A stretch of DNA of 64,000 bases, from contig PKTM01000029.1 of the NCBI GenBank assembly GCA_002869145.1, positions 1 to 64,000 on the forward strand, read 5' to 3'. Both the position numbers and the translations under genes were made by a program. Below are positions 24,964 through 27,297 of the stretch, one piece after another (the stretch's first letter is position 1; each line of letters begins with the position of its first letter). The notes below the pieces were generated by a model, which did not search any database, was not told the origin of the DNA, and saw only the letters and a list, made by a program, of their open reading frames with translations. Source of the stretch: Denitrovibrio sp. (GTDB taxonomy: Bacteria > Chrysiogenota > Deferribacteres > Deferribacterales > Geovibrionaceae).

Positions 24964-26544
24964 ATGGGAAGACGAGTGGAAATATACGATACCACGCTCA
25001 GAGACGGTACGCAGGGCGAGGACGTAAACTTTACCATCGCGGACAAGGTTAAGATAGCAGAGGCTCTGTACGATTTTGGTGTATCATATATCGAAGGAGG
25101 CTGGCCAGGGTCTAACCCCAGAGATATCGGTTTTTTCAATGCTGTAAAAAAATCAAATGTTCCAGATGAATATATAGCGGCCTTCGGAAGCACTAGGCGT
25201 GCAAAAAGAACGTGTGATAGCGACGAGAATATTCAGGCTTTGCTAGAGGTTGAAGTTCCGAATCTTACCATTTTTGGAAAAACATGGGATTTACACGTTA
25301 CAGAGGCTTTGAAAATTGATCTTGAGCATAATCTTGAGCTTATCAACGACTCGCTCTCATACCTTAAAACTAAGGTGGATAAAGCTTTTTATGATGCTGA
25401 GCATTTTTTTGACGGCTATAAAGCAAATAAAGACTACGCCATTAAAACTATTAAGGCTGCTATGGATGCCAAGGCTGATTGCATTATTCTCTGCGACACT
25501 AACGGCGGCACAATGCCAGAAGAGATCACAAGTATTATGCAGGAACTGATAAAAGTAACATGTAATTACCCACTAGGAATACATTGCCATAACGACAGTG
25601 ACTGTGCAGTTGCAAACTCTGTAATTGCTGTACGAAATGGTGCTGTGCATGTTCAGGGTACAGTTAACGGATACGGGGAGAGATGCGGGAATGCAAACTT
25701 AATGTCTGTAATCCCAAACCTTCAGCTGAAATACGGTTACGACTGTGTCCCTGCTGAAAAGCTTAAAAACCTAAGAACAGTTTCAAGATACATAAATGAA
25801 CTTGGGAACCTGAAACACAATATCCATCAGCCATACGTAGGGCGCTCATCCTTCGCTCATAAGGGTGGAGTTCATGTGAGTGCTATTATGAAAAATTCCA
25901 GCACATACGAGCATATTCAGCCTGAGATGGTTGGCAACCGACAGCGTGTACTTTTGTCTGATCTTTCAGGTAAATCAAACCTTATCTATAAAGCTAAAGA
26001 TTTCGGGCTTGACGTAGACAGCTCTGATCCGAAGATAAACGCAGTTGTAGAATCTCTTAAAGAGCTGGAAAACAAAGGCTTTCAATATGAAGGTGCAGAA
26101 GCATCTTTTGAGCTTCTTATGCGTAAAACTATGGGAACATTTACTCCTTTCTTCGACTCTATGAGCTATAGAGTTCTGGACGAGAAAAAAACAGACGAAA
26201 GTCCTCTGGCAGAGGCTACTGTTATGCTTCAAGTGGAAGGCGAGAAGGAACACACTGCTGCTCAAGGTAACGGCCCTGTAAATGCCATAGATAACGCTAT
26301 TAGAAAAGCTCTGCTGAAGTTCTATCCAAATCTTGCAGATATGGAACTGGTTGACTATAAAGTAAGGATACTAACTGCCGGATCTGGTACAGAGGCCGTC
26401 ACCAGAGTTCTTATAGAATCTAAAGATTCTGAATCCGTATGGGGTACTGTAGGTGTAGCTACAAATATTGTTGATGCGTCATATCAGGCTCTTATGGACT
26501 CAATAGAATATAAATTACTTAAAGATAAAGAAAAAATAATATAA
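24964..26544 (+). CDS. cimA: (R)-citramalate synthase
   Basis: CimA condenses acetyl-CoA and pyruvate to citramalate, giving 2-oxobutyrate for isoleucine without threonine deaminase. The 526 aa sequence matches the long CimA type: EIYDTTLRDGTQGEDVNFTI, YIEGGWPGSNPRD, LCDTNGGTMPEE, IHCHNDSDCAVANS, VQGTVNGYGERCGNANL, and a C-terminal LeuA-type regulatory domain (about 395-520). Its place behind hom and lysC matches a shared branched-chain/aspartate operon. LeuA is excluded as first choice because the GGWPGSNP block is characteristic of CimA. Confidence 0.93.
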   Translation: MGRRVEIYDTTLRDGTQGEDVNFTIADKVKIAEALYDFGVSYIEGGWPGSNPRDIGFFNAVKKSNVPDEYIAAFGSTRRAKRTCDSDENIQALLEVEVPNLTIFGKTWDLHVTEALKIDLEHNLELINDSLSYLKTKVDKAFYDAEHFFDGYKANKDYAIKTIKAAMDAKADCIILCDTNGGTMPEEITSIMQELIKVTCNYPLGIHCHNDSDCAVANSVIAVRNGAVHVQGTVNGYGERCGNANLMSVIPNLQLKYGYDCVPAEKLKNLRTVSRYINELGNLKHNIHQPYVGRSSFAHKGGVHVSAIMKNSSTYEHIQPEMVGNRQRVLLSDLSGKSNLIYKAKDFGLDVDSSDPKINAVVESLKELENKGFQYEGAEASFELLMRKTMGTFTPFFDSMSYRVLDEKKTDESPLAEATVMLQVEGEKEHTAAQGNGPVNAIDNAIRKALLKFYPNLADMELVDYKVRILTAGSGTEAVTRVLIESKDSESVWGTVGVATNIVDASYQALMDSIEYKLLKDKEKII

Positions 26545-26553
26545 TTTTAACTG

Positions 26554-26579
26554 TGCCGTCTGTCTAAAGGCAGGCGGCA
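26554..26579 (+). terminator. Hairpin after cimA, possible terminator
   Basis: TGCCGTCTGTC and GGCAGGCGGCA pair over 11 bp (two G-U pairs) around a TAAA loop, right after the cimA stop. There is no clean T-run after it, so it may be a weak terminator or a processing/stability stem. Confidence 0.5.
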
Positions 26580-26588
26580 TATTACCAC

Positions 26589-26616
26589 TTGACACTATTA
26601 ATTTAAGAATTATAAT
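26589..26616 (+). promoter_or_regulatory. Promoter for a candidate small RNA
   Basis: TTGACA (26589-26594) and TATAAT (26611-26616) are 16 bp apart; a second TATAAT lies at 26622-26627. No plus-strand gene follows for 800 bp, but a strong terminator hairpin does. Confidence 0.6.
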
Positions 26617-26623
26617 TATTGTA

Positions 26624-26767
26624 TAATCAATTTACTATTTACATATTTATAAATTTTTAGAAAACAGCTACTTAACAACAAAAAAATAAAATAGAACTTT
26701 AGCCCGGCTATTTCTATGCTTTATCCCTCCTCCCCCCTTAAAGCATGTAGCCGGGATTTTTTATTTC
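26624..26767 (+). ncRNA. Candidate small RNA with a C-rich terminator loop
   Basis: Between the promoter and a T-run there is about 140 nt with no open reading frame. The 3' end folds into two coaxial 8-bp stems: CCCGGCTA (26703-26710) with TAGCCGGG (26748-26755), and ATGCTTTA (26716-26723) with TAAAGCAT (26739-26746). They enclose a 15-nt loop TCCCTCCTCCCCCCT and are followed by ATTTTTTATTT. A loop of repeated CCUCC could pair with Shine-Dalgarno sequences, as C-rich sRNAs do in other bacteria. The exact start is inferred. The hairpin may also end minus-strand transcripts of the next gene. Confidence 0.5.
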
Positions 26768-26829: not shown

Positions 26830-27297
26830 TTATTTTACAGCAGGTGTTTTTTCTTGAATCCAGTCATTTTCAATAGCTATATCTACTATTCTCATTGCAA
26901 CAAAGTCAACTGTTTTGGTGCAGTTCTTATATTTACCAAGCCCGAAGACTTTTGAACTGTTTTTAGTAATAACTCTGCAGCAAGCGCTTCTGAACTCGTG
27001 TCTGAATTCGTCATGAAGCTGTTTGACTATATCTTGAAGTTTTTCTGTAGATTCGTCAGGGGACAATCTTCCGCCCATAGTGCTTAAAACAAATGTCCCG
27101 CCGGCAAGTGCTCCGCAGATACAGCCTGAGCCGCCAATACCCTCAACAAAGGCTGACATACCTCTTTTCATAGCATCACTATATTCATTATCAGTATACT
27201 TTTCAAATGCTAGCAGAACAGCTTCGGAGCAATGATATCCGCTTTTGAAGAGCCTTACAGCTTCGATAGAAACTTTAACAGCTAATGGTTCAGGCAT
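26830..27297 (-). CDS. C_GCAxxG_C_C family redox-motif protein
   Basis: A 155 aa cytosolic protein of the C_GCAxxG_C_C family, whose function is not established; the conserved cysteines suggest a redox or metal role. The family pattern is visible: a first Cys in SGYHCSEAVL (about 23), the GCICGALAGGTFVL motif (about 58-71), a CC pair near 107, and a Cys near 125. No signal peptide. It converges with the candidate small RNA and diverges from the binding-protein gene at 27.4 kb. Confidence 0.78.
   Translation of the reverse strand: MPEPLAVKVSIEAVRLFKSGYHCSEAVLLAFEKYTDNEYSDAMKRGMSAFVEGIGGSGCICGALAGGTFVLSTMGGRLSPDESTEKLQDIVKQLHDEFRHEFRSACCRVITKNSSKVFGLGKYKNCTKTVDFVAMRIVDIAIENDWIQEKTPAVK

Follow-up and report, generated by a model that had tools for sequence, protein, structure and literature searches.

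We identified a small RNA gene, designated sRNA1, in a stretch of 64,000 nucleotides (the window) from a 2.88-Mb genome of the phylum Deferribacterota. The gene has its own promoter and terminator, its hairpin is conserved in six families with covarying stems, and a second RNA, sRNA2, shares its unpaired C-rich motif. We consider it likely that sRNA1 is a trans-acting, probably Hfq-assisted anti-Shine-Dalgarno RNA repressing respiratory genes; from the sequences we infer its expression, base pairing, repression, Hfq dependence and inducing signal. The active part of this RNA of about 140 nt would be located in its terminator hairpin, whose 15-nt loop holds a C-rich seed that would pair with G-rich Shine-Dalgarno (SD) sites (GGGGAGGA, AAGGGGGGA) and thereby block ribosome binding, most likely aided by Hfq. 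In the window genome the likely regulon comprises respiratory and energy-conserving genes, with sdhCAB as the leading candidate. Relatives are numbered by family, f1 being the family of the window and g1 its genus.

Promoter, predicted transcript and genomic context of sRNA1

The sRNA1 gene is located between two genes which we take, from reading their translations by eye, to be cimA (24964–26544, plus strand) and a C_GCAxxG-type gene (26830–27297, minus strand). A separate hairpin GCCGTCTG...CAGGCGGC directly 3' of cimA (26552–26578) is presumably the terminator of cimA itself. The sigma-70-type promoter TTGACA-16-TATAAT occupies positions 26589–26616 of the plus strand, with its boxes at 26589–26594 and 26611–26616 separated by a 16-nt spacer, and matches the consensus at 12 of 12 positions, just as the original prediction had claimed. 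The three genomes sequenced from the genus share the identical promoter and spacer, 85–91 nt upstream of the hairpin, while the remaining nine f1 genomes carry an 11/12 version (TTGAAA-16-TATAAT). The promoter is thus found in 12/12 f1 genomes, and equally good ones arose in 0–1% of shuffles. A simple promoter scan detected good promoters in every f1 genome, in f3 and f5 and in a single f8 genome, and no convincing one in f2 and f7.

The transcript is expected to span about 26623–26762 (~140 nt). It would start with an A/U-rich 5' leader of about 79 nt (26623–26701, plus strand), a possible Hfq-binding region whose sequence is not conserved; among relatives the predicted leader varies between about 2 and 84 nt, and in f5 the predicted RNA is hardly longer than the hairpin. 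We dismissed a protein product of the locus, as the only plus-strand frame of at least 20 codons has 25 codons and runs through the hairpin. The gene-free RNA of about 140 nt proposed originally therefore holds in its predicted length and its lack of a substantial ORF, but not as a conserved unit, since its 5' half is variable and the RNA of other families is predicted to extend little beyond the hairpin.

Direct succession to cimA is observed in f1 (12/12) and f7 (3/3) only, therefore sRNA1 is not just the terminator of cimA. In f2, f3, f5 and f8 it is located away from cimA, which identifies it as an autonomous gene. A promoter and a terminator of its own are also what is expected of a trans-acting anti-SD RNA.

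A conserved terminator hairpin exposes a C-rich loop

The conserved core of sRNA1 (26702–26762, plus strand, as are all its parts), captured by covariance model R1, consists of a two-part terminator hairpin and a U-tail. In the outer stem CCCGGCUA (26703–26710) is complementary to UAGCCGGG (26748–26755) at 8/8 positions, and in the inner stem AUGCUUUA (26716–26723) is complementary to UAAAGCAU (26739–26746), again at 8/8. Both perfect stems, the 15-nt loop and the downstream T-run (U-tract at 26757–26762) are as first described. The apical loop UCCCUCCUCCCCCCU (26724–26738), the proposed anti-SD seed, contains the loop core CCCUCCUCCCC (26725–26735), which is predicted to be unpaired. The hairpin folds with a z-score of −6.8, matched by none of 200 shuffles, and the whole predicted transcript, which contains one hairpin, with a z-score of −3.5 (1/200). 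A terminator scan was limited to loops of at most 8 nt and therefore missed this structure. The genome of 2.88 Mb contains a single copy of the loop 10-mer CCCTCCTCCC and none of its complement.

In a DNA search of 60 relatives the hairpin was found at about 77–97% identity in six families, with diverged flanks. Model R1, built from ten sequences, matches once per genome in 26/26 genomes of f1, f2, f3, f5, f7 and f8 (E 1e-18 to 8e-6). The model search returned no match in f6, f9 and f10 and a single one in f4 at E 0.8 only; by this search sRNA1 is absent from all 20 f4 and f6 genomes. In the alignment of the 26 sequences both partners have changed at four stem pairs, three of the eight in the outer stem and one in the inner stem (U-A / C-G). 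Cells changed on both sides number 13 versus 3.8 in shuffles, and 95% of cells are paired versus 24–48% once the partner is slid. This alignment was fitted to the model; a MAFFT alignment of ten sequences yields the same four covarying pairs.

The loop core is invariant in f1, f3, f5, f7 and f8 although stems and leader change. In f2 it reads CCCUCCUCCCC, CCCUCCCCUCC or AAUCCUCCCC, with CCUCCCC always kept, and the loop in f3 and f7 is CCCCUCUU. The base of the outer stem and the end CCGGGATTTTT are likewise invariant, the latter being kept in 26/26 genomes. A constant loop combined with compensatory stem changes in relatives, the check suggested along with the original prediction, was hence borne out across six families, with the core unchanged in five of them. 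No Rfam match was found for the window element or its relatives; three sub-threshold matches in a search up to E 10 (E 0.56–3.7) were rejected as chance.

A second small RNA carries the same motif

Counting the 11-mer revealed exactly two copies in many genomes, with the reversed control near zero. sRNA2 was found in all six families that have sRNA1, and within f1 not in genera g1 and g4. In f2, f3, f5, f7 and f8 it consists of a TTGACA promoter, an unpaired CCCUCCUCCCC(CC)UCCUUAAAAUAUAU and a plain terminator whose sequence differs from family to family; terminator and A/U stretch are both variant in f5. The f1 genera g2 and g3 read UUUUCCCUCCCCUCCUUAACACACAU with the motif CCCUCCCCUCC. The 11-mer is exposed unpaired close to the 5' end of sRNA2, outside its terminator, in a fold structurally unrelated to that of sRNA1. 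In most families sRNA2 occupies a separate locus; in f5 it is convergent to sRNA1. Since the same unpaired motif occurs in two unrelated frameworks, the motif rather than the hairpin appears to be the functional element, and we regard this as the strongest argument for such a role. The heptamer CCUCCUU also occurs in the 16S tail (CACCUCCUUUCU).

Further candidates were rejected. Additional exact copies of CCCTCCTCCCC inspected in f1 are located in coding-looking sequence without adjacent promoter or terminator, and near matches to sRNA2 in the three genomes of the window genus (G000, G001 and G002) lack a promoter or a terminator. Outside the phylum one of two pattern matches was inspected and proved to be coding-looking, GC-rich and without hairpin. 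A palindrome, GTTTAATATATTAAAC, encloses the −10 region of the f2 sRNA2 and is a possible operator, and in f7 the sRNA2 leader contains an inverted repeat, GGTATTTgatagAAATACC, immediately 5' of the C-rich seed.

Predicted preference of the loop for G-run Shine-Dalgarno sites, with respiratory genes as candidate targets

We searched for targets by pattern in the window genome (G000). Binding to the ordinary GGAGG sites of the genome in general, as proposed originally, is not what the pairing energies indicate: the loop prefers G-run SD sites (GGGGAGGA, AAGGGGG) over the canonical AAGGAGGU. For AAGGGGGG we calculated −18.9 kcal/mol with the loop versus −11.7 with the 16S tail and for GGGGAGGA −17.1 versus −10.7, while for the canonical AAGGAGGUGA the order is reversed (−12.0 versus −17.3). 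AAGGGGG is a common SD-like site in this genome. AAGGGGG-N4-11-ATG occurs at 47 sites versus 2 for the reversed pattern; the pattern GGGGAGG alone hardly exceeds its reversed control (14 versus 10).

G-run sites precede sdhC, sdhB, nuoK, nuoM, rnfG, nqrD and other respiratory genes. About half of 44 inspected AAGGGGG sites are not convincing gene starts. The plausible ones include nuoK, nuoM, nqrD, mrpB, a molybdopterin oxidoreductase, a COX3-like gene and two Fe-S subunits of the DMSO/tetrathionate-reductase type, as well as glutamate dehydrogenase, a thiolase, an aminotransferase, trpA and cheW. GGGGAGG sites add sdhB and rnfG, and nuoN, livF and proW recur in relatives. Taken together, about 11 of some 24 plausible genes with either site are respiratory versus 0/60 genes of the window, a background of which 50 genes were scanned against Pfam and the others read by eye, with no respiratory-chain subunit seen. 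Fisher's test gives a p of about 1e-7 by gene and about 1e-4 by locus, with classes defined post hoc and one contiguous window as background. As AAGGGGG is still able to pair with 16S, one of the pairs being G-U, G-run sites may merely be a permitted SD variant.

The sdhC site UAAGGGGGGA can form 10 bp with the loop and the sdhB site GGGGAGGA 8 bp. Both computed interactions are better than those of 60/60 background window genes, a comparison that is circular for sdhB, chosen by the same motif, and affected likewise for sdhC, which entered via an orthologue so chosen. Pairing of sdhB with the loop ranges from −10.9 to −19.8 in families with the RNA versus −7.7 to −12.4 in f4 and f6, which lack it, whereas pairing of sdhB with 16S covers a similar range in both. 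The contrast is weaker for sdhC. The sdh sites vary among families, and pairing at f8 sdhB and at the f5 sites does not exceed that of ordinary sites. Overall, sRNA1 exposes a conserved C-rich seed with complementarity to SD sites, and pairing of the loop with such sites, a central point of the original prediction, gains support as a predicted interaction from sRNA2 and from the target-site statistics.

Alternative explanations

The hairpin ends in a U-tract, follows cimA in f1 and f7 and keeps the base of its outer stem and its CCGGGATTTTT end invariant, all of which would also suit a mere intrinsic terminator, serving cimA or some short transcript, with a loop devoid of regulatory function. 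We regard this as quite improbable: cimA has its own hairpin at about 26552–26578, with the 12/12 promoter placed between that hairpin and the one of sRNA1, and in four families sRNA1 is found away from cimA. A plain terminator is moreover not expected to fix an unpaired 11-nt core across five families while its stems covary, and the motif recurs in sRNA2 outside the terminator.

Where a small hairpin has an invariant loop, this is often a protein site. The C-rich loop could accordingly be bound by a protein, with the RNA acting as a sponge or as a structural component of an RNP. CsrA recognizes GGA, and since many G-run sites contain GGA a protein similar to CsrA might target the same mRNAs. 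The sRNA1 loop itself, however, lacks GGA, and the motif stays unpaired in both RNAs despite their very different structures, includes CCUCC, the anti-SD core of 16S, and is matched better by the candidate SD sites than 16S is; a protein site thus seems unlikely. An RNA from the opposite strand could fold into the same hairpin and would present GGA motifs in its loop AGGGGGGAGGAGGGA that might titrate a CsrA-like protein. This we consider extremely improbable, because promoter and U-tract of the relatives are both located on the C-rich strand and sRNA2 is likewise C-rich in sense. An anti-SD RNA read from the C-rich strand remains the explanation that we prefer.

Comparison with known anti-Shine-Dalgarno RNAs

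RsaE/RoxS of Firmicutes employ a C-rich seed against SD sites and have targets in central metabolism. The original comparison of the loop with RsaE-type RNAs is justified as an analogy but not as family membership, since Rfam yields no RsaE match to the sRNA1 region at the gathering threshold or up to E 10. The architecture of sRNA1 also differs from that of RsaE/RoxS (for RoxS see PMC8216469). In its predicted mode of action sRNA1 is also analogous to NmsR, NfeR1 and LhrC.

NmsRA and NmsRB of Neisseria meningitidis are sibling RNAs that share a seed and have three stem-loops each; their anti-SD motifs are located in a single-stranded region and a loop, and validated targets in the TCA cycle include sdhC (PMC5362039). 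Here, too, two RNAs share an anti-SD seed, with sdhC as a candidate target by prediction only, but sRNA1 has one hairpin and sRNA2 differs in fold and, in most families, in locus. The alphaproteobacterial NfeR1/alpha-r14 and cuckoo/CcsR RNAs expose an ultraconserved unpaired CCUCCUCCC on stems that are free to change; in alpha-r14 RNAs three hairpins have the motif, and NfeR1 acts independently of Hfq (PMC10746234; PMC10253847). An identical unpaired CCUCCUCCC is located in the sRNA1 loop (26724–26738), which suggests that distant phyla independently reached the same solution. In contrast to those RNAs sRNA1 has a single hairpin and one motif copy in the genome, and unlike NfeR1 it occurs only in genomes with Hfq. 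In LhrC1-5 of Listeria monocytogenes CUCCC in the terminator loop contributes to binding of target SD regions, with three such sites and five gene copies (PMC4132741). The sRNA1 motif is also placed in a terminator loop, but in contrast to LhrC the window element has no Rfam match. Judged by the features tested, sRNA1 belongs to neither RsaE nor alpha-r14. No sRNA described from the phylum Deferribacterota turned up in literature searches.

Co-occurrence with Hfq

All 26 genomes with sRNA1 encode Hfq (PF17209), as expected for an Hfq-dependent RNA, while Hfq was found in 0/20 genomes of f4 and f6, the two families also devoid of sRNA1. The outgroups f9 and f10 have Hfq and lack sRNA1. In an rpoB tree f4 and f6 fall within the order and are weakly supported as sisters, so the association may reflect a single joint loss. 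The co-occurrence is therefore suggestive of Hfq dependence rather than proof of it.

The findings provide two conserved families of sRNA that share one anti-SD seed and a respiratory regulon predicted down to its exact target sites, together with a natural comparison for the loss of Hfq inside one order. Tentatively, and with considerable doubt, one might go further and propose a second SD code in Deferribacterales, in which a subset of mRNAs, most of them respiratory, carry G-run SD sites with weak pairing to 16S and strong pairing to one or two dedicated anti-SD RNAs, a code that would have been lost with Hfq in f4 and f6. In that case the loop and these SD sites would diverge jointly from family to family, and under such co-evolution the AAGAGGGG sites in f3 and f7 would track the loop CCCCUCUU of these families.

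In addition to a normal Hfq of 74 aa, a 192-aa protein with two tandem Hfq domains is encoded in the window genome (contig C10 of G000, 245977–246555, minus strand). Almost every genome of the order that has Hfq also encodes a similar double-domain protein.
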